From positions 248,001 through 312,000 of the forward strand of contig NZ_OCPC01000005.1 in assembly GCF_900220985.1 (NCBI RefSeq): a stretch of DNA of 64,000 nt. Direction: 5' to 3'. The notes below the pieces were generated by a model, which saw only the letters and a program-made list of their open reading frames with translations, had not been told where the DNA came from and did not search any database. Positions 2,246 to 17,706 of this stretch are shown one piece after another; position 1 is the stretch's first letter; each line of letters begins with the position of its first letter. Source of the DNA: Parahoeflea halophila (lineage in GTDB: Bacteria; Pseudomonadota; Alphaproteobacteria; Rhizobiales; Rhizobiaceae). A program made the translations under genes and the position numbers.

Positions 2246-3403
2246 TCACTCGGCCGGTGCGGGTGATATCCGCTCGGGCTTCCGGGCCACCACTTCTTCC
2301 GCCCACAGCGAATGGTGCTCGCGCGCCCAGTTAAGGTCGACTTCGCCCGAGCCCATGGCGTCATAGGCACCCTGCATCCCGATCGTGCCGATATAGATAT
2401 GGGCAAAGATCAGACAGATCATCGCCACCGCGACAATACTATGCCAAACGCTGTTGAACTGCTGCTCCTGGATGGCGCTGTAGGGTGGCTCGGGCAGCCC
2501 GAGTATAGCCGGTACGTCGATGCCGATATTGCCGAGAAGCGCGAAAGTGCCTGTGAACAGCTGGTGCTCGAAGGGGAACAGCAACGCCCAGCCCGAGACC
2601 GACACCGACAGCCCGAGCAGCATCACGCCCCAGAAGATCAGCTTCTGACCGGCGTTGAATTTCTTTGCCGGAGGATGGTTTGATTTGCCAATCAGTCCGC
2701 CACCCTTGGCCAGCCAGTTGAGATCGGTCCGGTCGGGGATGTTGTGGACGATCCAAAGCACAAAAGCGAGAGCGAGCCCGATCATGAAGGCAAAGGCGGT
2801 GTAGTTGTGCGTGGCCTTGAGGAAGCCCGACAAGGGGCCGAACAGGTCCTTTCCAATGACCGGCAAGACCAGCGAACGGCCAAAAGTGAAGTTGAGCCCG
2901 CTGATGCCCAGTGTGATGAAGGACAGCGCCATCAGCCAGTGGCTCATCCGCTCAAGCGTGGAGAAACGCTTGATCTTGACGCCGGACATTCCGTGCTCGA
3001 CCTTGATGCGGCCGCGAATTGCGAAGAACACCGCCAGCAGGACGATCGTGGCCAGCATGGCATAGCCCAGGTAATCATTCATCGGGCCCTTGCGCTGGAG
3101 CCGCCAGTCCTCGCCCTGGGACTGGATCATCAGACCGGCGGACTTGTCGGGGATCGGTACGGTGCCGACCTCGCCCTGCCGGATGTCGCGCCAGATATCC
3201 GCATCCGATGCGGTGCCCTGAACCCCGCCCTGCAGGGGCGGACCGGGCGGTGCGATGGAGGTCGTTGCATTTTCCGGTGGGCGAACCGAACTCTGAGCCT
3301 TGGCCTCAGGCGGCAGCACCAGCCCGGTGAGAACCAGCAGCGCAAAGGCGATGCCAGGTAGAAGGTAGCGCGCAGACGCGCGGCGCGTCGTGAGATGCTT
3401 CAT
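2246..3403 (-). CDS. fdoI: Formate dehydrogenase gamma subunit (cytochrome b556)
   Basis: 385 residues from the ATG at 3403 (GGGAG ribosome site). It has an N-terminal export signal ending near A-K-A-Q, a Pro-rich periplasmic stretch, one membrane helix (Y-A-M-L-A-T-I-V-L-L-A-V), and then the four-helix diheme cytochrome b domain. Candidate haem histidines lie in L-E-R-M-S-H-W-L-M, K-A-T-H-N-Y-T and F-A-H-I-Y-I-G. The C-terminal A-R-E-H-H-S-L-W-A-E motif is typical of FdoI/FdnI. It passes electrons from the iron-sulfur beta subunit to quinone in the inner membrane. The extra N-terminal periplasmic part is usual for the alphaproteobacterial fdh3-type protein. Confidence 0.92.
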   Translation of the reverse strand: MKHLTTRRASARYLLPGIAFALLVLTGLVLPPEAKAQSSVRPPENATTSIAPPGPPLQGGVQGTASDADIWRDIRQGEVGTVPIPDKSAGLMIQSQGEDWRLQRKGPMNDYLGYAMLATIVLLAVFFAIRGRIKVEHGMSGVKIKRFSTLERMSHWLMALSFITLGISGLNFTFGRSLVLPVIGKDLFGPLSGFLKATHNYTAFAFMIGLALAFVLWIVHNIPDRTDLNWLAKGGGLIGKSNHPPAKKFNAGQKLIFWGVMLLGLSVSVSGWALLFPFEHQLFTGTFALLGNIGIDVPAILGLPEPPYSAIQEQQFNSVWHSIVAVAMICLIFAHIYIGTIGMQGAYDAMGSGEVDLNWAREHHSLWAEEVVARKPERISPAPAE

Positions 3404-3500
3404 CGGTGAACTCCCGGTGTCCGGATACGATCTGGCGACGACCACTCAGCCGGCAGGCAAGCCCCCGCCGGCCGCTCAGACTGTGATGGGCGAATGCCGA

Positions 3501-4094
3501 TCAACCGCCCTTCTGCTCGTAGGCTGTACCCCAGCCCCAGGCCCCGGCGCCGAAACCCCGGGCAACGATGCGCTCGCGGTAGATCTGCGAGACAGTGTCG
3601 CCATCTCCGGCCAGCAGCGCCTTGGTCGAGCACATCTCGGCACACAGCGGCAACTTGCCTTCGGCTATACGGTTGCGGCCGTATTTCTGAAACTCGGCAG
3701 CGGAGGTGTCCTCCTCCGGTCCGCCGGCGCAGAAAGTGCATTTGTCCATCTTGCCGCGGGAACCGAAGTTCGAGGCTTGCGGGAATTGCGGCGCGCCGAA
3801 GGGGCAGGCATAGAAGCAATAGCCGCACCCGATGCACAGATCCTTGTCGTGCAGCACGATGCCGTCTGCCGTCTGGTAGAAACAATCCACTGGGCAGACC
3901 GCCATGCACGGCGCGTCCGAGCAGTGCATGCAGGCGACCGAGATCGAGCGTTCACCCGGCTTGCCGTCATTGATGGTGACGACGCGCCGGCGGTTGATGC
4001 CCCAAGGCACTTCGTTCTCGTTCTTGCAGGCGGTGACGCAGGCGTTGCATTCGATGCAGCGTTCAGCGTCGCAGAGGAATTTCATTCTAGCCAT
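3501..4094 (-). CDS. fdh3B: Formate dehydrogenase beta subunit (4Fe-4S ferredoxin type, FDH3)
   Basis: 197 residues from the ATG at 4094, preceded by GGGAGGA. Four cysteine clusters are visible: C-I-E-C-N-A-C-V-T-A-C (residues 13-23), C-M-H-C-S-D-A-P-C-M-A-V-C-P, C-I-G-C-G-Y-C-F-Y-A-C-P, and C-T-F-C plus C-A-E-M-C. They would bind four 4Fe-4S centres carrying electrons from the molybdopterin subunit to cytochrome b. Unlike E. coli FdoH there is no C-terminal membrane anchor, so it must be held by the gamma subunit. It lies 14 bases after fdh alpha. An upstream in-frame extension to 4196 is not conserved sequence and was not used. Confidence 0.92.
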   Translation of the reverse strand: MARMKFLCDAERCIECNACVTACKNENEVPWGINRRRVVTINDGKPGERSISVACMHCSDAPCMAVCPVDCFYQTADGIVLHDKDLCIGCGYCFYACPFGAPQFPQASNFGSRGKMDKCTFCAGGPEEDTSAAEFQKYGRNRIAEGKLPLCAEMCSTKALLAGDGDTVSQIYRERIVARGFGAGAWGWGTAYEQKGG

Positions 4095-4108
4095 AGTGTT
4101 TATCCTCC

Positions 4109-7090
4109 CTATGCCCGTTCGATGCGGCAAAGCGTGGTTTTGGATTCCTGCATCTGCGTGACCATGTCGTAGCCATAGGTCTGCGCGGTGTTGCACGCTT
4201 CCCCAAGCACGATCGGATCAGCCCCTTCAGGATACTTGTCTCTCTGGTCCACACCCTGGAAATGCCCGCCGAAGTGGAACGGACAGAAGACGACGCCCCT
4301 ACCGACCCGCTCGGTCAGCATCGCCATGACCTTTATCTTGGCACCGGACGGGCTGTGCAGCCAGACGGTGTCACGGTCCCGGATGCCGAGATTGTTGGCG
4401 TCGAAGGTGTTGATCTCGACGAACATGTCCTGCTGCAATTCGGCCAGCCATGAATTGGAGCGGGATTCATCACCGCCACCTTCATACTCGACCAGACGCC
4501 CGGAGGTCATGACCAGCGGAAAGTCCTTGGAATGATCAACGTCCTGGATCGACTTGTAGGCTGTCGGCACACGCCAGAAAGTCTTGTCGGCGATCGTCGG
4601 GTAGTCGGCGACAAGCTCGCGATTGGGCGCGTAGAGTGGTTCGCGATGAAGCGGCACGGGGTCCGGGAAGGTCCAGACCACAGCGCGAGCCTTGGCGTTG
4701 CCATAGGGTGCGCAACCGTGATTGATGGCGACGCGCTGGATGCCGCCGGAAAGATCGACCTTCCAGTTCACGCCTCCGACCTTGTCGTCATAGTCCGACG
4801 GGATTTCGCCCTGATGCGAGGTCTCGCCGACCTCTTCCTCATTCGGGCGTTCCTTGATGATGCCGGCGACATATTCGATCATCCTGCGCTCGTACGGAGA
4901 CAGGTCCTGGTCCCAGCCGAGGCCCTTGAGCATGGCCATGGTGAATTCAGGATAACCATCCTCGATCTCCGAACCGACCGGCCAGCTGTTTTCGGCCAGC
5001 AGATTGTCGCCATTGCGCTCGACGCCGAAGCGGGCACGGAAGCCCATGCCGCCCTTGGCAACGGGAACTGACACATCATAAAGGTTGGCCGAACCGGTGT
5101 GCTTCATTTCGGGTGTTCCCCAGCACGGCCATGGCAGACCATAGAATTCACCATCATGCGGACCACCGACACCACGCAGGGTGGTCTTGTCGAAGGTGTG
5201 CTGGTTCTCCATGTGCGACTTCAACCGCTCGGGAGACTGTCCGGTCATGCCGATGGTCCACATGCCCCGGTTCCACTCGCGGGTAATGTCCTCGACCAGC
5301 GGCTCCTCACCGTTGACCTCGATGTTGCGGAACAGACGATCCTCAAAACCGAACTTCTTGGCGAACTTGTACATGATGATGTGGTCAGGCAGCGATTCGA
5401 ACAGCGGCTCGACCACGGCCTCACGCCACTGGATCGAGCGGTTGGACGCCGTCACCGAGCCGTAGGTCTCGTACTGGGTCGAGGCCGGCAGCAGATAGAC
5501 GCCGTCCTGGCGGTCCTGAAGCACCGCGGTCATGGTCGGATAGGGATCAACGACAACCAGAAGATCGAGCATCCCCATCGCCTTTTGCATTTCCGGCAGC
5601 CGGGTTTGCGAGTTCGGCGCATGACCCCAGAATACCATGACCTTGGTCTGATCAGGTTGCTCCAGATTCTCCTTGGCTTCCAGAACACCGTCGATCCAGC
5701 GCGATACCGGAATTCCGGTCTCGTTCATCATCAACTTGTCCTTGCCGTCCTTGCCCTGCATGGTGGCAAAACGACCTTTCAGCCAATCGAGGTCCTCACC
5801 CCAGACGCGCGCCCAGTGAGCGTAGGCCCCCGCCGACAGGCCGTAATAGCCGGGCAGCGTATCGGCAAGCACGCCGAGGTCGGTTGCGCCCTGCACGTTG
5901 TCGTGGCCACGGAAGATGTTGGCGCCGCCGCCGCTCGTGCCGATGTTGCCCAGGGCGAGCTGCAGGATCGAGTAGGCGCGGGTATTGGAAGACCCGTTGG
6001 TGTGCTGGGTACCGCCCATGCACCAGATCAGGGTGCCCGGACGGTTTTCAGCCAGCGTACGGGCGACCCGCTCGAGCTGCGAGCCAGGCACACCGGTTAC
6101 ACGCTCAACTTCGCCGGGGTTCCATTTCCTCACTTCTTCACGGATCTGGTCCATACCCCAGACACGGGAGGAAATGTACTCCTTGTCTTCCCAGCCGTTC
6201 TCAAAGACGTGGTAGAGAATTCCCCAGATCAGCGCCACGTCGGTGCCGGGCCGGAAACGCACGAACTCGTCGGCATGTGCCGCGGTGCGGGTAAAGCGCG
6301 GATCGCAAACGATCAACGGCGCATTGTTCTCTTCCTTGCACTTGAGAAGGTGCAGCAGCGACACCGGATGCGCCTCGGCCGGGTTCGAGCCGATCAGAAT
6401 CATCGACCTGGCATTGTGGATGTCGTTGTAAGAGTTGGTCATCGCACCATAGCCCCAGGTGTTGGCAACACCGGACACCGTGGTCGAATGGCAGATGCGG
6501 GCCTGGTGGTCGACGTTGTTCGTCCCCCAGTAGGCCGCGAATTTGCGGAACAGATAGGCCTGTTCGTTGGAGAACTTGGCTGAGCCGAGCCAGTAGACCG
6601 AATCCGGCCCCGAGGTCTCGCGCACCTCAAGCATCTTGTCGCCGATCTCGTTGATGGCCTCGTCCCAGGAGACGCGTTGCCACTTTCCGCCGACCAGCTT
6701 CATCGGATACTTCAGACGGCGGTCGCCATGCGCATGCTCGCGCACCGAGGCGCCCTTGGCACAGTGGGCGCCGATGTTGAACGGGGAATCATAGCCAGGC
6801 GCCTGACGGGTCCAGACCCCGTTCTCGACTTCAGCAATAACCGTGCAACCGACCGAGCAGTGCGTGCAGACCGATTTTCTGGTTACGACGTCTGCGGTGC
6901 CTGCGGCTGTTTGAGCTTCCGCGCGCTTGACCATCCCGCCGGAAAGCGTGGAAATGGCCGCCGCCCCACCGATGGTGAGACCGGAACGCTTGAGGAATGT
7001 CCGGCGATCGATCGCCGTCACTCCCTGCTCTGCTACCGTCGAGGACAGCCGGGAGCCTCGCGCAACCCCATTTGCCTTCTTCCTGAGCAT
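4109..7090 (-). CDS. fdh3A: Formate dehydrogenase alpha subunit (molybdopterin, Tat-exported)
   Basis: 993 residues. A Tat signal (R-R-T-F-L-K, Arg29-Arg30) precedes a hydrophobic stretch, so the folded enzyme is exported to the periplasm. A 4Fe-4S site follows (Cys75, Cys78, Cys82, Cys110). The active-site motif is A-R-I-C-H-S-T-T-V with Cys200, so this is a cysteine rather than a selenocysteine enzyme, and no in-frame TGA is needed. Molybdopterin-binding segments (G-S-N-P-A-E-A-H-P, G-G-T-Q-H-T-N-G) and the C-terminal dinucleotide-binding domain are present. It oxidises formate to CO2 and feeds the quinone pool through the beta and gamma subunits. GGAGGATACT precedes the ATG. Confidence 0.95.
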   Translation of the reverse strand: MLRKKANGVARGSRLSSTVAEQGVTAIDRRTFLKRSGLTIGGAAAISTLSGGMVKRAEAQTAAGTADVVTRKSVCTHCSVGCTVIAEVENGVWTRQAPGYDSPFNIGAHCAKGASVREHAHGDRRLKYPMKLVGGKWQRVSWDEAINEIGDKMLEVRETSGPDSVYWLGSAKFSNEQAYLFRKFAAYWGTNNVDHQARICHSTTVSGVANTWGYGAMTNSYNDIHNARSMILIGSNPAEAHPVSLLHLLKCKEENNAPLIVCDPRFTRTAAHADEFVRFRPGTDVALIWGILYHVFENGWEDKEYISSRVWGMDQIREEVRKWNPGEVERVTGVPGSQLERVARTLAENRPGTLIWCMGGTQHTNGSSNTRAYSILQLALGNIGTSGGGANIFRGHDNVQGATDLGVLADTLPGYYGLSAGAYAHWARVWGEDLDWLKGRFATMQGKDGKDKLMMNETGIPVSRWIDGVLEAKENLEQPDQTKVMVFWGHAPNSQTRLPEMQKAMGMLDLLVVVDPYPTMTAVLQDRQDGVYLLPASTQYETYGSVTASNRSIQWREAVVEPLFESLPDHIIMYKFAKKFGFEDRLFRNIEVNGEEPLVEDITREWNRGMWTIGMTGQSPERLKSHMENQHTFDKTTLRGVGGPHDGEFYGLPWPCWGTPEMKHTGSANLYDVSVPVAKGGMGFRARFGVERNGDNLLAENSWPVGSEIEDGYPEFTMAMLKGLGWDQDLSPYERRMIEYVAGIIKERPNEEEVGETSHQGEIPSDYDDKVGGVNWKVDLSGGIQRVAINHGCAPYGNAKARAVVWTFPDPVPLHREPLYAPNRELVADYPTIADKTFWRVPTAYKSIQDVDHSKDFPLVMTSGRLVEYEGGGDESRSNSWLAELQQDMFVEINTFDANNLGIRDRDTVWLHSPSGAKIKVMAMLTERVGRGVVFCPFHFGGHFQGVDQRDKYPEGADPIVLGEACNTAQTYGYDMVTQMQESKTTLCRIERA

Positions 7091-7171
7091 AGTATCCTCC
7101 GTTGGGTTTAATACGTCTCCAGGACGATCAGCAAGGGCCCTCCTCAGAACCGCGTGCTGGCATTACAAGCC

Positions 7172-7369
7172 TTAATACCGTGCACTGGCGTAATAGGCCT
7201 TGATGTGGTCGGTCTCCCGGTAGCCGGCGTCACCCGCAGGCTCGGCAAGCTCGACCGCCTGGCTTTCGCCGCCTGCGACCAGAGCTGCGCCGCCGGCAAC
7301 CGTACCCAGCCCGGCGAACTTCAGAAAACCGCGACGGTCGGTCGTGGTGTCTTCGGTCTTTGCCTTCAT
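7172..7369 (-). CDS. Small Tat-signal protein of the formate dehydrogenase region
   Basis: 65 residues: a basic N-terminus, then D-R-R-G-F-L-K-F-A-G-L-G with a hydrophobic stretch (a clear twin-arginine signal), and a short mature part ending H-I-K-A-Y-Y-A-S-A-R-Y. This matches the small 'formate region TAT' family encoded just upstream of fdh alpha subunits. It has no catalytic domain. It may travel with the alpha subunit or recruit the Tat machinery; the function is not established. GGAG lies 7 bases before the ATG. It is 81 bases upstream of fdh3A in the same orientation. Confidence 0.8.
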   Translation of the reverse strand: MKAKTEDTTTDRRGFLKFAGLGTVAGGAALVAGGESQAVELAEPAGDAGYRETDHIKAYYASARY

Positions 7370-7473
7370 TTTGGTCTCCAGTTCTCGACGCCTTTACCCG
7401 TCCGCTGCAGCCTGGCCGGGCGTCTTCTCCGGACTGCGTTACCCAATTTGCAAACACTCATCGCAAAGGCGGC

Positions 7474-8079
7474 CTACATCTCGAACGCGGCTTGCTCGAT
7501 TGCCATGAACAGGCGTCCCATGCGGCCGACAGGTTTGAAGAAGCGCGCCGATGAACAAGTCTCGAGATCTCTGAAAAAATGCGGGGTCCAGCTGCCCACA
7601 TGGCTGTCGAAGAACCGTTTCTGGACGGTCAGGGGCTGGATTGCGCCAAACGTCCCGTCGATCAGGCCTGCCATCATTTCCATCAGGGCGGCCGCGTGAT
7701 CCTCGGGATCCTTGACATCGTGGTTGCGGGCTATGCCCAGCGGGCGCATGTCGTTGCGCAGGCGCGCGAGCGGCTTCTCATGCATGAAACCGGTCAGATA
7801 ATAGGAGCCGAATGGGGTTAGCATGCCACGGCCGAGGCCTATGAACAGCATTTCATACTCGTCGCGGGCATCGGCCAGACTCGTGCCGGCCGCAGCATTT
7901 GAGAGATCGGCAATTGCCTCGCCGAGCTCAGAACTGTCGCCCGTCATCTGGGTCAGAATGGAAATGAGAGATGCATCAGGTGGTTCGCGCAGAAGTCGGG
8001 CCAGAAGCCTGTAAACATTGACCCGAGACTGATCGGTTTCATCAACTCTATTTGTCGAACGAGCTTGCTGATTCAGCAC
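7474..8079 (-). CDS. TorD/DmsD-family molybdoenzyme chaperone
   Basis: 201 residues, soluble, all-helical in appearance. Typical TorD-family segments are Y-R-L-L-A-R-L-L-R-E-P-P near the N-terminus, E-Y-E-M-L-F-I-G-L-G-R-G-M-L-T-P-F-G-S-Y-Y, and P-E-D-H-A-A-A-L-M-E-M-M in the middle. Such chaperones bind Tat signal peptides and the unfolded molybdoenzyme until cofactor is inserted. The client here is most likely the fdh alpha subunit two genes downstream. The start is a GTG at 8079 with AGGGAG upstream. It is the first gene of the fdh operon, so the operon promoter should lie in 8080-8367. Confidence 0.85.
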   Translation of the reverse strand: MLNQQARSTNRVDETDQSRVNVYRLLARLLREPPDASLISILTQMTGDSSELGEAIADLSNAAAGTSLADARDEYEMLFIGLGRGMLTPFGSYYLTGFMHEKPLARLRNDMRPLGIARNHDVKDPEDHAAALMEMMAGLIDGTFGAIQPLTVQKRFFDSHVGSWTPHFFRDLETCSSARFFKPVGRMGRLFMAIEQAAFEM

Positions 8080-8367: not shown

Positions 8368-10434
8368 CTAACGCAGCGCGGCCTCGATGTTGCCGCCATC
8401 GACGGTGATGACGTGGGCGGTGGTCCGCTCTGACCTGGCCAGCGCCACGAAGGCATCGGCAACATGATGCGCCTCGACTTCCGCCTTGAGCAGATTGCCC
8501 GCCATGTAATCGGATGCGGAGACACCTCTCGCCTCGGCGCGCGACTTGATGAAGTCGTCGGTCAGCAGGCCGGAGCGGATGCGGTCGGCATTGACGCCGT
8601 TGACCCGGACGCCGGCACCGCCGAGTTCCAGCGCCAATTGCCGCACTAGGAAGAAAGTGGTGGCTTTGGGAAGTCCGTAGGCACCGAAGCCCTTGCCCGG
8701 ATTGACCGCCTGCTTGGAGACGTTAAACAGCATCTGGCCGCCATGATCCTGAGCCGCAAACACCCGTGCTGCAGCGCGCGCCATGGCGAGGTGGGAGAAG
8801 AAGTTGAGCTCGAAGCTCGAGCGCAGCGTTTCCTCGTCCAGGTCAAGCAGCATGCCCGGGATGGCGGCACCGGCGTTGGACACCAGCACATCGAGACCAC
8901 CGAAGCGTTCGACGATTTCAGCCACGGCCTTGCTCGCCGCACCGTTTTCCGTCAGATCGGCAACCACGGCAAGACAGTTCTCACCGATCGAGGCGGCTGC
9001 GGCCTTGCAGGCCTCGGCGTTGAAGTCGATCAACGCAACGGCGGCGCCCTCGCGGGCAAAAGCCTTGGCGGTCGCAAGCCCAATGGCGCCGGCGCCGCCG
9101 GTGACGGCCACCACCTGCCCGGAGAAGGGTTTGGCGCTGGCCTTGCCCAATTTGGCCTGCTCGAGCGACCAGTACTCCAAGTCGAACAGATCATCCTGTC
9201 CGAGGGGTTGGAATCCGCCTGCCGCTTCACCGAGTGTCATGACTTCGACGGTCTGTTCGGCAATATCAGCGGCAGCAGAGGCTGCGGATGCATCCTTGCC
9301 GATGCCAACGATGCCGAGCCCTTCAATCCAGGCCACACAGGGGTGCGGCTCCAGCATGACCTTGCCGCCACCGAACCTCTGGTTCTGTGTCTCGAACATG
9401 GCGTGGTAAGCCTTGGCGAACTCATCCACGCGCGTCTCAACGCTTCCGTTGGCCATATCCTGCTTGCTGAGCCTCAGCATGCGGCCCTTGGTGCGAATGA
9501 CGTGATCGGGCGAGGCGACGCCGCGTTGGGCCAGTTGCTCAAGATCGCCGCGGTTGAGGAAGGCATCGATCACATCGCTGCTTCTGACATCCATGACCAC
9601 CGGCCGCGGGGCGCCGCTGTGATGCGCTCCCCGCACACGCCCGATCGCGCCGCGCAGAAGCGGCAGAACCGATGCGGCCAGATCCGTATCCGCTATGGAG
9701 CGGTTGCGCTGGACGGTACGGTTGAAGCTGCGGCCCTTGTCACGCGCCGCCAGCCATTCCTCGACCATATTGGTGTGCTCGATCACCTTGTCATAACTTT
9801 CGCGCGCAGTGGCACCAAAGGTGAAATGGCCGTGCTTGAGCAGAATCAGGCCTTCGCAATCGGGATTGGCTTCAAACACTTCGGCTGCCTTTTTGGCCAG
9901 CGCGAAGCCGGGCATGATGTAAGGCACAACCGCCAGCCGGTCGCCGAAGATCTCGCGGATTGCGGCCTCGGCATCCGGCAGGTTGGCCAGCGCCAGAAAT
10001 GCCGTTGCGTGGGTGTGATCGACAAAGGTATGCGGCAGGAAGGCGTGCAGCAGGGTCTCGACCGACGGGTTGGGGGCCGTGGAGTCGAGCAGGTTGGAAC
10101 GCTGCATGTTGACCATGGCCTCGTCCGACATGGCGTCGAGTTTGCGCGTCTCCAGCAGAGGCGAGAGCCAGAGCCCGGGAAGTCCCGGCGCCTCCAGCGT
10201 ATCGAGATCCCAACCACTGCCCTTGACGTGCAGAACCTGCCGGACATTTCCGAGAAGGTCCATGCGTTCGGTCTTGACCGAGGTGTTGCCGCCACCGTGC
10301 ATGACAAGGTCAGGATCCGCACCGATAAGGCGGGAGGAGTAGACCCTCATCGCCAGTGTCTGGTCGGAGGGATCCGAACCTGCTGCATCCACCCGCGCCT
10401 GAGCTTCCTTGTCATTCCACCTGTTTTGCCGCAT
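8368..10434 (-). CDS. Bifunctional class II aldolase / short-chain dehydrogenase fusion
   Basis: 688 residues from the ATG at 10434 (AGGAGAAGG ribosome site). N-terminal class II aldolase domain: M-H-G-G-G-N-T-S-V-K phosphate loop (residues 45-54), zinc ligands in D-H-T-H (140, 142), and a later K-H-G-H-F-T-F-G. From about residue 430 an SDR domain: T-G-G-A-G-A-I-G nucleotide loop, N-A-G, and catalytic Y-G-L-P-K. The closest known architecture is rhizobial RhaD (rhamnulose-1-phosphate aldolase/lactaldehyde dehydrogenase). Here it sits with mtnA and mtnK, so the substrate is inferred to be 5-methylthioribulose-1-phosphate or 5-deoxyribulose-1-phosphate, cleaved to DHAP plus a C2 aldehyde that the SDR domain then processes. 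Confidence 0.88.
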   Translation of the reverse strand: MRQNRWNDKEAQARVDAAGSDPSDQTLAMRVYSSRLIGADPDLVMHGGGNTSVKTERMDLLGNVRQVLHVKGSGWDLDTLEAPGLPGLWLSPLLETRKLDAMSDEAMVNMQRSNLLDSTAPNPSVETLLHAFLPHTFVDHTHATAFLALANLPDAEAAIREIFGDRLAVVPYIMPGFALAKKAAEVFEANPDCEGLILLKHGHFTFGATARESYDKVIEHTNMVEEWLAARDKGRSFNRTVQRNRSIADTDLAASVLPLLRGAIGRVRGAHHSGAPRPVVMDVRSSDVIDAFLNRGDLEQLAQRGVASPDHVIRTKGRMLRLSKQDMANGSVETRVDEFAKAYHAMFETQNQRFGGGKVMLEPHPCVAWIEGLGIVGIGKDASAASAAADIAEQTVEVMTLGEAAGGFQPLGQDDLFDLEYWSLEQAKLGKASAKPFSGQVVAVTGGAGAIGLATAKAFAREGAAVALIDFNAEACKAAAASIGENCLAVVADLTENGAASKAVAEIVERFGGLDVLVSNAGAAIPGMLLDLDEETLRSSFELNFFSHLAMARAAARVFAAQDHGGQMLFNVSKQAVNPGKGFGAYGLPKATTFFLVRQLALELGGAGVRVNGVNADRIRSGLLTDDFIKSRAEARGVSASDYMAGNLLKAEVEAHHVADAFVALARSERTTAHVITVDGGNIEAALR

Positions 10435-10519
10435 TAACCTTCTCCTGCCGACTTGAACTCGCTGCATTTGACAAAAGTCATTGCATGTTGTCAAATGTAT
10501 ATATCGACGAGGAATTGAA
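10435..10519. promoter_or_regulatory. Divergent promoter with SorC-type operator (aldolase/SDR vs regulator)
   Basis: The 85-base gap between the aldolase gene (minus) and the SorC regulator (plus) carries a perfect 10-bp inverted repeat, CATTTGACAA at 10465-10474 and TTGTCAAATG at 10488-10497, separated by 13 bases. Inside it is TGAC-AAAA-GTCA at 10469-10480. The reverse complement of that 12-mer, TGAC-TTTT-GTCA, recurs in the other divergent promoter of this locus at 13967-13978. Sharing between two promoters of one catabolic locus makes it the best candidate for the local regulator's binding site. Confidence 0.6.
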
Positions 10520-11491
10520 ATGCCTCAAAATCCGACCAGGCGTTCAACCAGGCAGATCAGCGGCGAGGATATCGTCGTCGAAACCGCATGGCTTTATTAT
10601 CATGACGGCCTCAATCAAAGCGAGATCGCCAACAAATTGCTGGTGTCGCGGGCGACGGTGGTCAACTACCTGCAGGAAGCCCGCGAGCGCGGCTACATCC
10701 ATACCAAATTGTCGCCGGAAGCCTTCAACACGCACCGGACGGCGCTGGAGCTGCGCGAACGCTTTGAACTCAAGGCCGCCTATGTGCTGCCCGACGGAAC
10801 CGGCGGTCAGGACGACCACGCAAGCCGTATCATCCGGGGTGCCGCGGACTGGCTGCCGAGCCTGATCCAGCCCGGGGACAGGCTCGGCGTGGCCTGGGGA
10901 AAGACCATCTACGATGTAGCCGAGCGGCTTGAACAGACCAACATACCTGACCTCACGGTGCTGCAACTGGTCGGATCGATGGCCACGCCCTACGGCTTCT
11001 CGGCCGACGTCTGCTCATCGATTGTGGCGCGCAAATTCTCCGCCAAGTGCATCAACCTGCATGTGCCGGCAATTCTGAGCACTGCCGAGAACGCGGCAAT
11101 GCTGAGGTCAGAATCCCTGATCGCCAACCAGCTCGATGCCATCAGCGACTGCAACAAGACGCTGTTTGCCGTGGGTTCCTGCAATCCCGACAGCCACGTC
11201 GTTTCAAGTGGCGTTGCGACACGGGCGGAGCTGGAAGACTACATTTCCAATGGGGCGGTCGGGGTGATGTGCGGGCGCTTCATCGATGCCAAGGGCGACG
11301 CGATCAGCGGCCCGCTCGACGACCGGATGATGGGCATCGGACTGGATGAGCTGCGCCACCGTGACATGGGGATCCTGGTGTCGGTCGGTGAGGAACGCGT
11401 GCCCGCTGCCGTTGCCGCCATCAGGGGCGGATATGCTACCCACCTGGTCACCAACCGGAGCTGTGCCGCAGCAATGATGAAGCTCGCCTGA
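10520..11491 (+). CDS. SorC/DeoR-type sugar-binding transcriptional regulator
   Basis: 323 residues from the ATG at 10520, preceded by GAGGAATTG. An upstream in-frame ATG at 10481 lies inside the operator and was rejected. The N-terminal helix-turn-helix is clear (L-N-Q-S-E-I-A-N-K-L-L-V-S-R-A-T-V, then L-Q-E-A-R-E-R-G). The rest is the SorC sugar-phosphate-binding domain of isomerase-like fold, with G-V-A-W-G-K-T-I, A-V-G-S-C and the C-terminal G-G-Y-A-T-H-L-V. Such regulators usually sense a phosphorylated sugar and derepress the operon. It is divergent from the aldolase/SDR gene, and the inducer is probably the MtnK or MtnA product. Confidence 0.88.
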   Translation: MPQNPTRRSTRQISGEDIVVETAWLYYHDGLNQSEIANKLLVSRATVVNYLQEARERGYIHTKLSPEAFNTHRTALELRERFELKAAYVLPDGTGGQDDHASRIIRGAADWLPSLIQPGDRLGVAWGKTIYDVAERLEQTNIPDLTVLQLVGSMATPYGFSADVCSSIVARKFSAKCINLHVPAILSTAENAAMLRSESLIANQLDAISDCNKTLFAVGSCNPDSHVVSSGVATRAELEDYISNGAVGVMCGRFIDAKGDAISGPLDDRMMGIGLDELRHRDMGILVSVGEERVPAAVAAIRGGYATHLVTNRSCAAAMMKLA

Positions 11492-11519: not shown

Positions 11520-12623
11520 TCAGGCGGCGTCGCGCCGTTCCGGGAACAGCTCCAGCAGGCCTTCGCGTGTCGCTTCAGCAACGCCGCGTTCGGTGATCAG
11601 GCCGGTCACGAGCCGCGCCGGGGTGACGTCGAAGGCCGGATTGCCGCCCGGCGTTCCATCCGGCGAGATCTGCACCGAGGCGACGCTGCCATCTTCGAGA
11701 CGGCCGAAGACGTGGGTCACCTCGCGGTCATCACGCTCCTCGATCGGAATCTCGCGGACGCCATCATCCACCGTCCAGTCGATCGTGCTCGACGGCAGCG
11801 CGACATAGAACGGCACATTGTTGTCGTGTGCCGCCAGCGCCTTGAGATAGGTGCCGATCTTGTTGCAGACATCGCCCGAGGCGGTGGTGCGGTCGGTGCC
11901 GACAATGACCAGATCGACTTCGCCATGCTGCATCAGATGCCCGCCCGCATTGTCGACGATGAGATGATGCGGGATGCCGTGGCTGTTCATTTCCCAGCTG
12001 GTGAGCTGGGCGCCCTGGTTGCGCGGACGGGTCTCGTCGACCCAGACATGGAGGGGGATGCCCGCCGCCGCCGCGTGATACATGGGCGAGGTGGCTGTGC
12101 CCCAATCCACCGTCGCCAGCCAGCCAGCATTGCAATGGGTCAGAATGTTGACTGCTTCACCCGACTTTTTGGTGGCCGCAATCTTCTTGATGATCTCGAG
12201 ACCGTGCACACCGATCATCCGGTTAGTCTCGACATCGGCATCATTGATCTCTTCGGCCTTGCGGAAAGCCGCCCTGGCACGTTCGCTTTCGGGAAGTGCC
12301 GAAAGCACCTTGCGCATTTCATCCAGCGCCCAGCGCAGATTGACCGCGGTCGGCCGGGTTTCGTTCAGCCGCTCCCAGGCGTTGTCCAACGCCTCATCAG
12401 AGGCATTTCGCTGCATCTCGATGGCGATGCCATAGGCGGCCGTGGCGCCGATCAGAGGTGCGCCGCGCACCCACATGTCGCGGATCGCCGTCGCAAATTC
12501 ATCCAGCCCGTCGAGTTCGACAACCCGGAATTCGTGCGGCAGCCAGCGCTGGTCAATGATCATGACCTTCGCCTTCTCTGCATCGAACCAGATCGACCGG
12601 TAATGTGTGTTGCCAACCTTCAT
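11520..12623 (-). CDS. mtnA: S-methyl-5-thioribose-1-phosphate isomerase
   Basis: 367 residues, normal length for MtnA. Diagnostic motifs are V-R-G-A-P-L-I-G near residue 55, [11 protein letters not shown] with catalytic Cys164, and [19 protein letters not shown] with catalytic Asp244. It interconverts 5-methylthioribose-1-phosphate and 5-methylthioribulose-1-phosphate; related enzymes also take 5-deoxyribose-1-phosphate. It starts two bases after mtnK ends, so the two are co-translated. The rest of the classical methionine salvage path (MtnB, MtnC, MtnD, MtnW/X) is not in the window, whereas an aldolase is, which points to a DHAP-type shunt. Confidence 0.95.
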
Positions 12624-12625
12624 TG

Positions 12626-13888
12626 CTATGCTCCCGTCTCAGCGCGCCGCGCTGCCGCCAATACGGCATCCATGCCGGTCAGGCGGTTTCTGTTGATGAC
12701 CAGGAATTGACCCAGCTTCAGGCACTTGGCTTCGCAGCGCGCCTTCAGGTCCTCATCCTCGATGGTGTCGATCTCTGCGACATGCGCCAGTCCGAGAATG
12801 CGGCGATGCATTTCGATGCCGGCAAAGCCGACGAGATCACGGAAGATCTCGGCAAGCAGCTGCTCCGCGGCGCTTTCCGACGCGAAGTTATGCCCCTGTT
12901 CCTCGTAGAGTGCCTTCGGATAAAGAATGCCGGTACGCTCAGTGCGCCACAACCGCAGGAACTCTTGCCTAAAGACCGACCAGGTTTCCTCGATGACGGA
13001 AAGAATCCAGTCCTGGAAATCGCTGCACTTGCCAGCATCTGAGATGTGAGCCGGCATGGCGTGGTAGGCCATCAGGTAATTGCCGATCAGCATGCCAATG
13101 TCGAAGCCGAATGGGCCGTAATAGGCAAACTCCGGATCGATGATCCGTGCCTCGTCGTCGGTGACCATGATAGAGCCGGCATGCAGATCACCGTGGCACA
13201 TGGTTTCACCGCGCGAGGTAAACGCGCGCTTCATGTGCTGAACCTCAACCTTGAGCGCGGTGTCGTTGCGCAGTTCTGCCACGATGCCGTCAAGCTGCGG
13301 CGTGGTGTGCCGGTTCATCTCGGCATCGTAATACGGGTCCGTGAAAACCAGCGCTTCGGTGATGTCGCAGAGTTCGACATTGTCGGCGAACAGCGCGACA
13401 TCGGCTTTCTTGTCCTTCGCCGTCATCGACAAATCCGACCCACGGAACGCGGTGCGTGCAGCAAACAATCCCAATGTCTTGCCCAATCCGGCAACCTTGC
13501 GCCCTTCCATGGTCTGCTGGCGCAAAATAATATGCGGCTGCAGGCGTTCCATGACGATCAGCGCCTGGCTTTCATCAAAATGCAGGACTTCGGGTACGCT
13601 GCCCGGATCCCGCGCTTCCTGACGGGTCAATGCATGATATTCGAAGAACGCCCGCTTGAGCGGCAAAGGCCAGCTGTCTCCAACCAGGCGCACATAGGGA
13701 AGCGCCTGCTTGACGATGACGCTGCCGGCATCGCCTTCCACGATGAAGACGAGGTTGAGATTGCCATCGCCCACTTCGCGCACCGTCCAGGCATCGGCAT
13801 TGGCACCAACAGCCTTCTTCATGACGTTGAGTTCACCCAGCCTCTGGCACAGGGTCTCCGGCGATAAAGGTTTGTAGTTGTTGCTCAA
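12626..13888 (-). CDS. mtnK: S-methyl-5-thioribose kinase (TTG start)
   Basis: 420 residues of the aminoglycoside-phosphotransferase-like kinase fold. Motifs are G-D-G-N-L-N-L-V-F near the N-terminus, the catalytic [11 protein letters not shown] and [15 protein letters not shown], all diagnostic for MtnK. It phosphorylates 5-methylthioribose at C1 using ATP. I place the start at a TTG (13888) because GGGAGG lies 6 bases upstream and the known N-terminus (N-N-Y-K-P-L-S) begins there; the next in-frame ATG would delete conserved sequence. It is divergent from the ABC importer, across a shared operator region. Confidence 0.93.
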
Positions 13889-14011
13889 AACTATCCTCCC
13901 AATTGACAGTCGAGGCTGTTTTTCAGCCAAGCCTAGTGTTCTCGTCAATCATTTGTCAATACGTATTGACTTTTGTCATTGCTGCTGTTCTCATCATAGC
14001 GGGAGGACAGG
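13889..14011. promoter_or_regulatory. Divergent promoter with operator repeats (mtnK-mtnA vs ABC importer)
   Basis: 123 bases between mtnK (minus) and the importer ATPase gene (plus). It contains a perfect 16-bp palindrome, GTCAATACGTATTGAC at 13955-13970, running directly into TGAC-TTTT-GTCA at 13967-13978; a further GTCA half-site lies at 13943-13946. The second element is the exact reverse complement of the one at 10469-10480. A TTGACT box (13966-13971) overlaps it, so occupancy would be expected to block transcription of the importer. GGGAGGACAGG precedes the importer ATG. Confidence 0.6.
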
Positions 14012-15544
14012 ATGAACGGAACTCTTTGCGATCTGCGGGGTGTGAGCAAGTCGTTCGGGGACAATCGTGTCCTCAAGCAGCTCAATCTGTCACTTCCTGC
14101 CGGCTCCGTCACTGTGCTGATGGGTGCAAATGGCGCAGGCAAGTCCACCCTCGTGAAGATCCTGAGTGGCGTACACAAGCTTGACGCCGGCTCCATCAGC
14201 CTTCTCGGCAAGGATTTCCTACCCTCGTCGCCATCCGAAGCCATTCGCGCCGGTGTCGTGACCGTGCACCAGAACATCAATGACGGCGTGATCCCGGATC
14301 TCGACGTCGCTTCCAATCTGCTGATCGACCGGCTGGCCGAGCCGGGCTACGGCTTCTTTCTCAAGCGTCAGCAGAACTATGCCGAGGCGGAGCGTATCGC
14401 CAGTCAGATGGGATTGTCGCTCAATGTCCGGCAGTCGGTTGCCGAGCTAGGCGTGGCCGACCGGCAGTTGATCGCGATTGCCCGCGCCATGGCACATGAC
14501 CCGCAATTGCTGATCCTCGACGAGCCGACCTCCTCGCTCTCGGCCTCGGAAGCTGAGCGGCTGTTCCTGTTGATCGAGCGGCTGGCGGCCAAGGGCGTTG
14601 CGGTGCTCTACATCTCGCACCGCATGTCCGACATCCGCCGCATTGCTGACAGGATCGTCTCGATGCGGGACGGTGAAATTTCGGGCGTCTTTGAAGGCGA
14701 CTCTCTTGATTACGAAGGTGCTGTGAACGCCATGCTCGGCCACCGGATGACCGACGTGGACATTACCATCGCCCGGCCGGGCAGATGCGTGCTGGAGATC
14801 GAGAAGCTACGGCTTCTGCCCGACAGCACGCCCTTCGATCTCGAACTGTGCGAGAACGAAGTTGTCGCCGTCACCGGCCTGCTTGGCAGCGGCAAAAGCG
14901 CATTCGCCCAAAGCCTGTTCGGCCTCGGGCGTCCTGCTGCCGGCCAGATCCGTATCGACGGTCAGGATTACGCGCCTGCCACGCCGCAAGCCGCCATCCG
15001 GCACGGCGTGTTCATGTCGGCCAAGGACCGGGCCAATAACGCGGTGGTCGCCGATTTCGACATCACACGCAACATTACCCTGCCCTTCCTGACGCGCTAC
15101 TCCCACCTATCCTTTGCCCGTCGCTCTCAGGAGCGCAGAACCGCTGACGAGATGATCGAGGCGCTGTCGATTGTCTGCCGGAGCAATTCCGATCCCATTG
15201 GCACGCTTTCGGGCGGCAACCAGCAGAAGGTGATGCTGGCGCGCTGGCTGGCCGAAGAGTGCCGGCTGCTGCTGCTTGACGAACCCTTCCAGGGCGTCGA
15301 CATCCGTGCCCGCCGTGACATCGGCCGAAAGATCCGCGAGACCGCGCAGAACCGTGCGACGCTGGTGTTCGTCGCCGAACTCGACGAAGCACTGGAAGTG
15401 GCCGATCGGATCATTGTCATGACCGAGCATTCGGTCACGGCCGAATTCCGCAACGAGAACGTGGATATCAACAACATCCTGACCGCAGTAACCGGTGCTG
15501 TACTGACCGACAATGACAGCGCCGCAAGGACAGCACTCGCATGA
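14012..15544 (+). CDS. Sugar ABC importer ATPase (RbsA type), probable 5-methylthioribose/deoxypentose uptake
   Basis: 510 residues with two tandem ATPase domains, the usual architecture for CUT2 sugar importers. Domain 1 has Walker A G-A-N-G-A-G-K-S-T and Walker B L-L-I-L-D-E-P-T. Domain 2 has a variant Walker A (G-L-L-G-S-G-K-S-A), the signature L-S-G-G-N-Q-Q-K and L-L-L-L-D-E-P. The domain 1 signature is degenerate (V-A-D-R-Q-L), so the two sites may be unequal. It overlaps the permease gene by 4 bases (ATGA). Substrate is inferred from the mtnK, mtnA and aldolase neighbours. Confidence 0.92.
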   Translation: MNGTLCDLRGVSKSFGDNRVLKQLNLSLPAGSVTVLMGANGAGKSTLVKILSGVHKLDAGSISLLGKDFLPSSPSEAIRAGVVTVHQNINDGVIPDLDVASNLLIDRLAEPGYGFFLKRQQNYAEAERIASQMGLSLNVRQSVAELGVADRQLIAIARAMAHDPQLLILDEPTSSLSASEAERLFLLIERLAAKGVAVLYISHRMSDIRRIADRIVSMRDGEISGVFEGDSLDYEGAVNAMLGHRMTDVDITIARPGRCVLEIEKLRLLPDSTPFDLELCENEVVAVTGLLGSGKSAFAQSLFGLGRPAAGQIRIDGQDYAPATPQAAIRHGVFMSAKDRANNAVVADFDITRNITLPFLTRYSHLSFARRSQERRTADEMIEALSIVCRSNSDPIGTLSGGNQQKVMLARWLAEECRLLLLDEPFQGVDIRARRDIGRKIRETAQNRATLVFVAELDEALEVADRIIVMTEHSVTAEFRNENVDINNILTAVTGAVLTDNDSAARTALA

Positions 15545-16617
15545 GCATGAACCTGGACCAGACAAACCCATCCGGAAGCACCAGTCCTGGCGCGCGCAAA
15601 CCGCAACCGGGCTCATCCGGCCTCATCGACATTGCCATCCGCTACGGCTTCCTGGCGCTTCTTGTCGGGCTGGTGATCTTCTTCTCGGTGTTTGCAAACG
15701 GGTTTGCCGGACCGCGCAGCGCGGTGTTCATCTTCCAGTCGGTGGCCATCACCGGCATTCTGGCGCTGGGCGTCACCTGCACCCTGGTGGTGGGCGGCTT
15801 CGACCTTTCCATCGGTTCGGTTGCAACCTCATCAATGATGCTGGCCGCCTACATGATGGTGGTACTGGAACAGCCGGCATTCGTCGCCATCATTGCCTGT
15901 CTGGCGATGGGGGCGTTCATCGGCTTGGTCAACGGCCTGCTGATCGTCAAGACCAAGGTGCCCGACCTGCTGGCGACACTTGGCATGATGTTCCTGCTGG
16001 TCGGGCTTCAGCGCATTCCCACGGAAGGCCGCTCGATCGCAATGGGCATGACACTGCCCGACGGTTCGACCGCCGAAGGCACGTTCTCGCCGCTGTTCCT
16101 GCAGCTTGGCCGCCACCGGTTCGATTTCATGCTCGAGAACCTGCTGCCAGCGCCAGTGGTCTTCCTCATCGTGATCGGCTTGCTGGTCTGGGTGTTCCTC
16201 GAACTGACCCGCCATGGGCGACTTATGTACGCTATCGGCTCGAACGAACGGGCTGCCAGCCTGACCGGCACCAATGTCAACCAGTACAAGATCATGGCTT
16301 ACATGATTTCCGGTGTGCTGGCCTCGATCGGCGGCATGCTGCTGGCTGCCCGGCTGGGCCGCGGCGACATCGCCTCGGGCACCAATCTGCTGCTTGATGC
16401 GGTTGCAGCAGCATTGATCGGTTTTGCGGTTCTGGGGGCTGCCAAGCCCAATGCCTTCGGCACCTCGATGGGGGCGCTGTTTGTCGGCATCCTGCTGCAG
16501 GGGCTGACGATGATGAATGCACCTTACTACACCCAGGATTTCATCAAGGGTCTGGTTCTGGTTATCGCCCTTGTCTTCACATTCTCGCTGTCGGCCAGAA
16601 AAGCCGGCGGCCACTAA
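15541..16617 (+). CDS. Sugar ABC importer permease (RbsC type)
   Basis: 358 residues, strongly hydrophobic after a polar N-terminus of about 25 residues, with eight to ten predicted membrane helices. The family segment V-V-G-G-F-D-L-S-I-G-S-V (substrate path and ATPase coupling) and the later A-I-G-S-N-E-R-A-A-S-L-T-G loop match the branched-chain/ribose-type BPD_transp_2 family. It forms the inner-membrane channel with the ATPase encoded just upstream. The start overlaps the ATPase stop codon (ATGA), and a second ATG two codons on is an equally possible start. Confidence 0.92.
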   Translation: MSMNLDQTNPSGSTSPGARKPQPGSSGLIDIAIRYGFLALLVGLVIFFSVFANGFAGPRSAVFIFQSVAITGILALGVTCTLVVGGFDLSIGSVATSSMMLAAYMMVVLEQPAFVAIIACLAMGAFIGLVNGLLIVKTKVPDLLATLGMMFLLVGLQRIPTEGRSIAMGMTLPDGSTAEGTFSPLFLQLGRHRFDFMLENLLPAPVVFLIVIGLLVWVFLELTRHGRLMYAIGSNERAASLTGTNVNQYKIMAYMISGVLASIGGMLLAARLGRGDIASGTNLLLDAVAAALIGFAVLGAAKPNAFGTSMGALFVGILLQGLTMMNAPYYTQDFIKGLVLVIALVFTFSLSARKAGGH

Positions 16618-16650: not shown

Positions 16651-17706
16651 ATGAGAATCATTCGCAGAAAGGCCCTTGCCCTGATCGCAGGCCTGGCCGC
16701 CGCAGCCGTCACCCTTCCCGCAGGCTTCGCGCAGGCCGCAGACATGCCGGCACCGCTCGACAATCCCGGTGATGTGAAGATCGCGCTTGTCCGCTACCTT
16801 TCCACCGGCGACTTCTTCCAGGCCTATCTTTCCGGCGTCGAACAGCAGGCCAAGGCGCTGGGCGTCGACCTCCGGGTTCTCGACAGCCGTCAGGACGCGG
16901 CCCTTCAGGCCGACATGGTTGACCAGGCAATTGCGCTTGGTGTCGACGGCATCATCATCCAGCACGGGCTGACTGAATCGATGAAGGAGGCCGCGCAACG
17001 TGCAGTGGATGCCGGTATCAAGGTGGTGGCTTTTGACGTTAATGTCGAAAACGACGCCATCCCGCAAATCGAGCAGTCGGATTACCTGCTCGGCAAACTC
17101 GCCCTGGAGCAGGCCATCAAGGATAACGGCACCGAATGGAAGGCCGGTTACGTCTACGTACCCGGCATTGCCCCGCTCGACCGCCGCCATGTCGCGTGGG
17201 AAGAGGTGAAGGAAGCCAATCCGGGTATCGTCGAAGCCGCACAGATGGGTACGCTGGACAATCCGATCGCCAACTCCAATGCCAACCAGGCTCGCTCGGT
17301 GCTGCAGGCCAACCCGGACATCTCAGTGTTCTTCGCCCCCTATGACGAGTTCGCAAAGGGCGTGAAGATCGCTGTCGACGAAGCAGGACTGTCGCAGGAC
17401 ATCAAGATCTACTCGGCAGATGTCTCGACCGCCGACATCTCCGCCATGCGTGAGCCCGACAGTGCCTGGGCGGCGACCGTTGCCACCAACCCCGCCGTTG
17501 TCGGCGAAGTTTCGGTGCGTGCGCTGGCGATCATGCTGACCGGTGGCAATCCCGGTGCTCAGGTGGTGGTGCCGCCGACACTGATCACGCAGGATTTCCT
17601 CAACGAAAAGGACATCAAGAACATGGAAGATCTGTCGGCCAACATGCCTCAATTTGCCCATGCCGATGTCGCGATGACGGAGTGGATGCCACTGCCGCCG
17701 CGCTGA
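16651..17706 (+). CDS. Periplasmic sugar-binding protein of the ABC importer
   Basis: 351 residues with a Sec signal peptide (basic I-R-R-K, hydrophobic core, cleavage near A-Q-A-A-D). The mature part is a periplasmic-binding-protein type I fold of the ribose/galactose class: I-A-L-V-R-Y-L-S-T-G-D-F-F-Q-A-Y start, G-V-D-G-I-I-I-Q-H-G, F-D-V-N-V and G-Y-V-Y-V-P-G-I. GGAGGAAAACAGC precedes the ATG. It is the last gene of the importer operon and is followed by a strong terminator. Hydrophobic residues in the ligand cleft would suit a methylthio or deoxy sugar, but that is not testable here. Confidence 0.9.
   Translation: MRIIRRKALALIAGLAAAAVTLPAGFAQAADMPAPLDNPGDVKIALVRYLSTGDFFQAYLSGVEQQAKALGVDLRVLDSRQDAALQADMVDQAIALGVDGIIIQHGLTESMKEAAQRAVDAGIKVVAFDVNVENDAIPQIEQSDYLLGKLALEQAIKDNGTEWKAGYVYVPGIAPLDRRHVAWEEVKEANPGIVEAAQMGTLDNPIANSNANQARSVLQANPDISVFFAPYDEFAKGVKIAVDEAGLSQDIKIYSADVSTADISAMREPDSAWAATVATNPAVVGEVSVRALAIMLTGGNPGAQVVVPPTLITQDFLNEKDIKNMEDLSANMPQFAHADVAMTEWMPLPPR

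Follow-up and report, generated by a model that had tools for sequence, protein, structure and literature searches.

Genes and features of the locus

The window (the whole stretch of 64,000 nucleotides analysed here) contains a gene for a fused class II aldolase and short-chain dehydrogenase (SDR), close to two mtn genes, a regulator gene and the genes of a sugar ABC transporter. The features considered below are as follows:

8368..10434, minus strand: fusion gene, class II aldolase/short-chain dehydrogenase, 688 aa, product termed P0001 (open reading frame, HMMs, AlphaFold model)
9739..10362, minus strand: catalytic class II aldolase domain, residues 25-232 (PDB 3m4r, 42% identity)
9139..9717, minus strand: middle domain, residues 240-432, probable diverged second class II aldolase-like fold (model, Foldseek)
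8389..9129, minus strand: short-chain dehydrogenase domain, residues 436-682 (Pfam, structure comparison, alignment)
10465..10497, no strand: perfect palindrome CATTTGACAA-N13-TTGTCAAATG, candidate operator, between the regulator and fusion genes
10520..11491, plus strand: SorC/DeoR-type sugar-binding regulator, MtnR (YjhU)-like (PF04198)
11520..12623, minus strand: mtnA, S-methyl-5-thioribose-1-phosphate isomerase (TIGR00512, 435 bits, cut-off 279)
12626..13948, minus strand: mtnK, S-methyl-5-thioribose kinase (TIGR01767, 492.5 bits, cut-off 275)
14012..15544, plus strand: sugar ABC transporter ATPase, AraG/RbsA-like (HMMs, under named-family cut-offs)
15541..16617, plus strand: sugar ABC transporter permease, RbsC-like (HMMs, under named-family cut-offs)
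16651..17706, plus strand: periplasmic sugar-binding protein, RbsB-like (HMMs)

The coordinates first assigned to the fusion gene proved exact, with a single open frame of 688 aa that begins at the ATG at 10434 and has a Shine-Dalgarno-like GGAGAAGG immediately 5' of it. The regulator gene is divergent and lies between the fusion gene and mtnA; its start was placed at the ATG at 10520, which has a Shine-Dalgarno sequence, in preference to a TTG at 10481. Both MtnA and MtnK score above the equivalog cut-offs, and MtnA is 60% identical to the MtnA of the E. coli mtnK-mtnA-ald2 cluster. Judged by its context, the RbsB-like binding protein is likely to be specific for 5-modified ribose, and a similar sugar-binding protein is found in 13 of 15 mtnK-linked loci, the window included. 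The same neighbours surround the fusion gene in four other Hoeflea loci (fusion 82-90% identical at the protein level; the closest named genomes are Hoeflea), and the arrangement of mtn genes and fusion is therefore not due to chance. On the 3' side of the fusion gene (2246-8079, minus strand) lies a formate dehydrogenase-like set, recognised from the translations only, consisting of a molybdopterin subunit, an iron-sulphur subunit, a cytochrome b and a maturation chaperone.

Domain structure of the fusion protein

Pfam places an Aldolase_II domain at residues 40-225 of P0001 and adh_short at 440-621, with the SDR part spanning 440-681 when two HMM models are combined. Of the curated families, NCBIfam NF006192 ('bifunctional aldolase/short-chain dehydrogenase') matches best; P0001 is a member (879 bits, cut-off 639), and the family name specifies neither substrate nor pathway. 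An AlphaFold model (mean pLDDT 91.3) shows three parts, namely the aldolase, a middle domain and a classical SDR. The aldolase domain carries the HxH motif and distal His of class II metal aldolases (H140, H142, H201), the catalytic Glu (E126) and the phosphate-binding N50 and S73, and residues N50, S73, S124, E126, H140, H142 and H201 are identical in 41/41 mtn-linked rows of the alignment described below.

The middle domain, when modelled alone, reached a pLDDT of 91.7. Its top Foldseek matches were fuculose- and rhamnulose-1-phosphate aldolases, with DrdA lower in the list; TM scores were mostly 0.43-0.53 and the E-value was <0.001 for one match only. Since it most resembles these aldolases, albeit with weak E-values, the modelled domain probably represents another class II aldolase-like fold that has diverged. 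Classical SDRs are marked by TGxxxGxG, NAG and an Asn-Ser-Tyr-Lys tetrad. These motifs are all found in the C-terminal domain, with TGGAGAIG, D470, N520, N544, S573, Y586 and K590 as its characteristic residues. No full-length solved relative of P0001 was found in the top 60 of 349 sequence matches or the top 50 Foldseek matches; apart from the 3m4r aldolase domain (42%), the best structural matches listed were generic SDRs only. The VIA-align structure comparison covers the SDR part of P0001, its list being filled by SDR chains.

Relationship to the rhamnulose enzymes

The initial annotation described the fusion as a relative of rhizobial RhaD that is paired with MtnA rather than with a rhamnose isomerase. 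In total 88 loci were compared, comprising 80 regions, the window, the second fusion copy of the same genome and six of seven named contigs; the 80 regions were picked by the analyst across identity bands from match lists, not at random. Neighbouring genes were called by tblastn in fetched flanks. The full tree has 87 rows, with L149 and L150 (match <1,500 bases, no mtn gene in the flank) and L158 (an SDR-only match) excluded and L119 counted as two rows. For some rows the protein sequence was taken from the tblastn stretch, unreadable residues being given as X, and one row of the FGGY-linked type has X at 140. The trees do not include the assayed RhaEW proteins of B. subtilis and Chloroflexus.

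A rha clade of 21 rows separates from the other 66, which include P0001, with SH-aLRT support of 100, and a bootstrapped tree of 45 rows gives the same split at 100/100 with P0001 outside. When the tree is read by neighbouring isomerase, as had been proposed, mtn genes fall on the P0001 side and RhaI in the rha clade. RhaI was found in the locus of 18/21 rha-clade rows (the other three carry a rha-type regulator, and one of them also a kinase) and beside none of the 66 P0001-side rows except L119. This locus holds an mtn-type fusion together with a rha-type fusion and RhaI, a natural side-by-side comparison. The shared aldolase-SDR architecture was confirmed, with P0001 standing outside the rha clade (100/100), and so was the pairing, as mtnA is in the locus and RhaI is absent from the genome (no TIGR02629 match at E 0.001). 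The locus has no rha markers. The initial annotation would have given way had P0001 fallen inside the RhaD clade as the only RhaD of a genome with rhaI and rhamnose genes; the genome has neither RhaI nor a rha-type fusion, and both of its two fusions have Glu at 126.

The two types can be told apart at single positions. Residue 126 is Glu in 41/41 mtn-linked rows and Asp in 21/21 rha rows. At 544, which belongs to the SDR tetrad, all 41 mtn-linked rows have Asn, and the rha rows have Leu in 20 cases and Met in one; at 172, Tyr is found in 40/41 mtn-linked rows and Trp in 21/21 rha rows. The metal-binding His, the phosphate-binding Asn/Ser and the SDR Ser-Tyr-Lys are common to both. Because the remaining P0001-side rows also have Glu126 and Asn544 (apart from a gap at 126 in a truncated row), these residues mark the P0001 side as a whole and are not special to the mtn-linked members. 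P0001 is not RhaD/RhaEW, though databases group both, and belongs to a separate and common branch.

The course first suggested for the family, of an enzyme retuned from a rhamnulose aldolase, finds no support in these comparisons. The product of the rhamnulose enzyme is the C4 epimer of the FucA-type 3R,4R product. This FucA-type product has been inferred for DrdA (PMC6079011, excerpt), so more than the aldehyde end must differ between the two types. RhaE carries Asp where E. coli RhaD has its catalytic Glu117, and the genes of RhaEW are stated to be always within rha loci (PMC3870299, excerpt). The mtn-type fusions share Glu with E. coli RhaD and occur outside such loci, and RhaE may therefore be the derived form.

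Distribution and association with mtn genes

Of 289 genomes sampled from the class, 50 (that of the window included) hold a fusion with a match at E 2.1e-119 or better, and the fusion is thus no local oddity. At least one of mtnA, mtnK and mtnP lies in the flank of 41/63 P0001-side rows (the 66 minus the distant L134, L092 and L136) and of 0/21 rha rows (Fisher 4e-8, relatedness ignored). The three distant rows form a clade of fusions of ~32-35% identity with Glu126 and no mtn or rha markers in the flank. No mtn gene was seen in the fetched flank of the other 22/63 rows, some of whose contigs end there; they include L112 (73%) and L113 (68%), the closest relatives beyond the Hoeflea group. Among 17 genomes with a fusion lacking adjacent mtnA, a count that leaves out L079, L081, L106 and L109 (mtnP but no mtnA in the flank), mtnA is present elsewhere in 15; G334 shows an mtnA fragment at the contig edge by the fusion, and G112 (81% complete) shows none. 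For comparison, mtnA was found in 6/17 genomes with only the rha type, 4/20 fusion-free genomes (the first of the class sample, many of them small) and 1/3 with the FGGY-linked type.

Where both genes were found, mtnA and the fusion gene are on the same strand in 37/37 compared loci, with a gap of <200 bp in 22. Gene order shows two recurrent patterns, mtnP-(apt)-mtnA-fusion on the one hand and, on the other, ABC transporter-mtnK-mtnA-fusion adjoined by the regulator. Transketolase-like half genes adjoin the latter cluster in L114, L116, L117, L118 and L125, with one half in L118 and both halves in the other four. Beyond the class, all 15 regions taken from the phylum's other classes (L175-L186, L188-L190; 35-48% identity) have Glu126, and mtnA, mtnK or mtnP is in the flank of one only, L176 (39% identity), where mtnP, apt and mtnA are beside the fusion; L190 has apt alone.

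Other contexts were also observed. In L132, L089, L133 and L149 the fusion has an FGGY sugar kinase gene and a G1P-dehydrogenase-like gene as neighbours, a third context; the fusion of L149 is a shortened one. Shortened versions (L149:8584-9951, L150:8490-9776 and L187:9043-10287) end after the aldolase and middle domain, and L149 and L150 have a separate ORF of an SDR-like cluster nearby, as if the fusion had been split. The second fusion of the window's genome (G000:C5:33345-35372; L011:11342-13378) is 56% identical to P0001. Its neighbours are genes for a similar SorC regulator, for an iron alcohol dehydrogenase and for a nucleoside-hydrolase-like protein, with no mtn gene among them, and the enzyme may act on another sugar or on a nucleoside.

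Regulator and candidate operator

The window regulator is 35% identical (9e-74) to YjhU of E. coli and 48% identical to the regulator beside the second fusion. YjhU has been renamed MtnR and represses the mtnK-mtnA-ald2 operon (PMC12632272, excerpt). The palindrome between the regulator and fusion genes has the core TTTGACA-N15-TGTCAAA, which has a single match in the window (0.01 expected) and is therefore absent upstream of mtnK. The exact core was found just 5' of the fusion in 7/20 other loci scanned, namely four from Hoeflea (L152, L153, L154 and L156) and L114, L118 and L173, and was not seen there in 13/20, one of which (L155) lacks that region. This pattern fits an operator common to part of the clade. 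A promoter and terminator consensus scan gave nothing above chance.

Replacement of Ald2

Ald2 was searched for in 51 mtnA-positive genomes, using a threshold of 126 bits that was set after viewing the scores, at the gap to 91. At this threshold or above, it was found in 10/10 of those without an mtn-type fusion and in 4/41 of those with one, a near-exclusion (Fisher 8e-8, relatedness ignored). Both are present in G541, G533, G389 and G336; in the last, the genome of L112, mtnA adjoins Ald2 and the 73% relative of P0001 stands apart. In a further 14 of the 41 fusion genomes all class II aldolase matches are weaker (60-91 bits for the best), which is to be expected in a broad aldolase family. 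The window's own genome has no Ald2 match at E 1e-12, and BLASTP of Ald2 against both fusion types gave no meaningful match.

The classical methionine salvage dioxygenase MtnD (ARD) had no match in the window's genome and scored above cut-off in 1/26 fusion genomes, with two further weak matches. MtnP, the MTA phosphorylase, is above cut-off in 18/26; the other 8, among them the window's genome, all have mtnK-type loci, and G436 has both MtnP and an mtnK-type locus. An MTA/5dAdo nucleosidase match in the window's genome is sub-threshold (TIGR01704, 34.7 bits, cut-off 73.8). From these patterns of presence and absence, MtnP or MtnK appears mostly to feed MtnA, followed by Ald2 or the fusion. 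Most likely, the fusion stands in for Ald2 in the DHAP shunt.

Proposed pathway and alternatives

We put at roughly 0.7 the probability that the fusion acts as the last enzyme in a DHAP shunt. The structure of the gene, its clade, its residues, the neighbouring genes, the near-exclusion with Ald2 and the palindrome are direct observations; the substrates, the oxidation and the repression are inferred. The ribose-type ABC transporter would import 5-methylthioribose and/or 5-deoxyribose, MtnK would phosphorylate the 5-modified ribose at C1, and MtnA would isomerise the product to 5-modified ribulose-1-phosphate. This would in turn be cleaved to DHAP and methylthioacetaldehyde or acetaldehyde by the metal-dependent aldolase at the N-terminus (His140, His142, His201; Glu126), and the C-terminal NAD-dependent dehydrogenase would convert the aldehyde, most likely to (methylthio)acetate with the formation of NADH. 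Such an oxidation would pull the reversible cleavage forward, remove a reactive aldehyde and spare the loss of the C2 unit as alcohol. The MtnR-like repressor would act at the palindrome between the regulator and fusion genes. The aldolase role on 5-modified ribulose-1-phosphate is highly probable.

The fate of the aldehyde is a separate matter, on which oxidation seems the probable outcome by analogy. An Asp at the SDR position of Asp470 is typical of NAD-binding SDRs, and Asp470 is identical in all 87 rows. RhaEW, an assayed relative, forms DHAP and lactate only with NAD+ and has no activity with NADH (PMC3870299, excerpt); on this analogy and the NAD-type mark, conversion of the aldehyde to the acid is expected. 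The P0001 SDR differs from that of the rha clade at Asn544, His548 and Arg618, and the RhaEW dehydrogenase reaction is therefore not simply transferable. An unlikely alternative keeps the aldolase role and has the dehydrogenase half reduce the aldehyde to 2-methylthioethanol or ethanol. SDRs are often reductases, and separate alcohol dehydrogenases carry out this reduction in known DHAP shunts. The characterised shunts mostly end in the alcohol, as in R. rubrum, R. palustris and aerobic E. coli (PMC5893883, PMC10986504, excerpts); in E. coli the aerobic product of the C2 unit is ethanol and the anaerobic one a mixture with acetate (PMC10986504, excerpt). However, the invariant Asp470 predicts NAD rather than NADP, and the inactivity of RhaEW with NADH also speaks against reduction.

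That another 5-modified or deoxy sugar phosphate is the substrate, with MtnA and MtnK serving that sugar or being unrelated, is more doubtful still. The fusions of L132, L089 and L133 with their FGGY kinase and G1P-dehydrogenase-like gene would agree with it, as would the second fusion with its nucleoside-hydrolase-like gene, Fe-ADH and similar regulator, and the retention of Ald2 in 4/41 fusion genomes. On the other hand, the MtnA and MtnK of the window exceed their equivalog cut-offs and relatives of the fusion pair with mtnP, the MTA phosphorylase gene. A true RhaD/RhaEW acting on rhamnose, with the mtn genes adjacent by coincidence, is exceedingly improbable. Its domain order would be identical and P0001 does reach 465.2 bits against TIGR02632 (RhaD), but this is below the cut-off of 567.75, P0001 lies outside the clade (100/100), residue 126 is Glu where 21/21 rha rows have Asp, and the genome is without RhaI. 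On its TIGR02632 score, clade, residue 126 and absent RhaI, this identity was rejected.

Significance

If the DHAP shunt reading is correct, many Alphaproteobacteria gain an enzyme for the step after MtnA where MtnD and Ald2 are absent, and (methylthio)acetate becomes a predicted metabolite, of which there was no occurrence in the literature among the matches listed. Annotations could be sorted by a residue test, Glu versus Asp at 126 and Asn versus Leu at 544. The plasmid-borne relatives in the P0001 clade, where the record names them, are annotated only as 'bifunctional aldolase/short-chain dehydrogenase'. A wider proposal, which we judge could as easily be wrong as right, is that a one-polypeptide oxidative DHAP shunt, common across Alphaproteobacteria and perhaps present outside the class, would be a main disposal route for methylthioadenosine and 5'-deoxyadenosine where classical methionine salvage and Ald2 are missing. 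The C2 end would yield acetate or (methylthio)acetate and NADH, so that all of 5-deoxyribose could be assimilated, and the family would have split early into a Glu type (5-modified pentulose) and an Asp type (rhamnulose).

Comparison with known systems

Fusion family and DHAP shunt are each known already, and no precedent for their combination, in which the fusion replaces Ald2, turned up among the open-licence papers listed. Among the matches listed from open-licence papers, seen as excerpts, none linked the fusion to mtnA, and the excerpts of PMC6302742, PMC9025865 and PMC10418091 make no mention of the fusion in Ald2's place.

RhaEW and rhizobial RhaD (TIGR02632, NF006189) are like P0001 in being aldolase-SDR fusions of ~700 aa with the metal-binding His triad, the SDR Ser-Tyr-Lys and the NAD-type Asp, at 26-33% identity. 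DrdA of Bacillus thuringiensis, also a class II aldolase, carries out the step predicted for P0001 (on 5-deoxyribulose-1-phosphate), but unlike P0001 it is stand-alone; it works best with Mn, and acetaldehyde is its likely product in vivo (PMC6079011, excerpt). The E. coli DHAP shunt resembles the window in its MtnK, MtnA (60%), MtnR-like SorC regulator (35%) and transporter gene, with the order mtnK-mtnA-ald2-permease-yjhU. It differs in that its transporter is a permease where the window has an ABC transporter, and in that Ald2, at 213 aa, is a stand-alone aldolase that carries no dehydrogenase, unlike the fusion.
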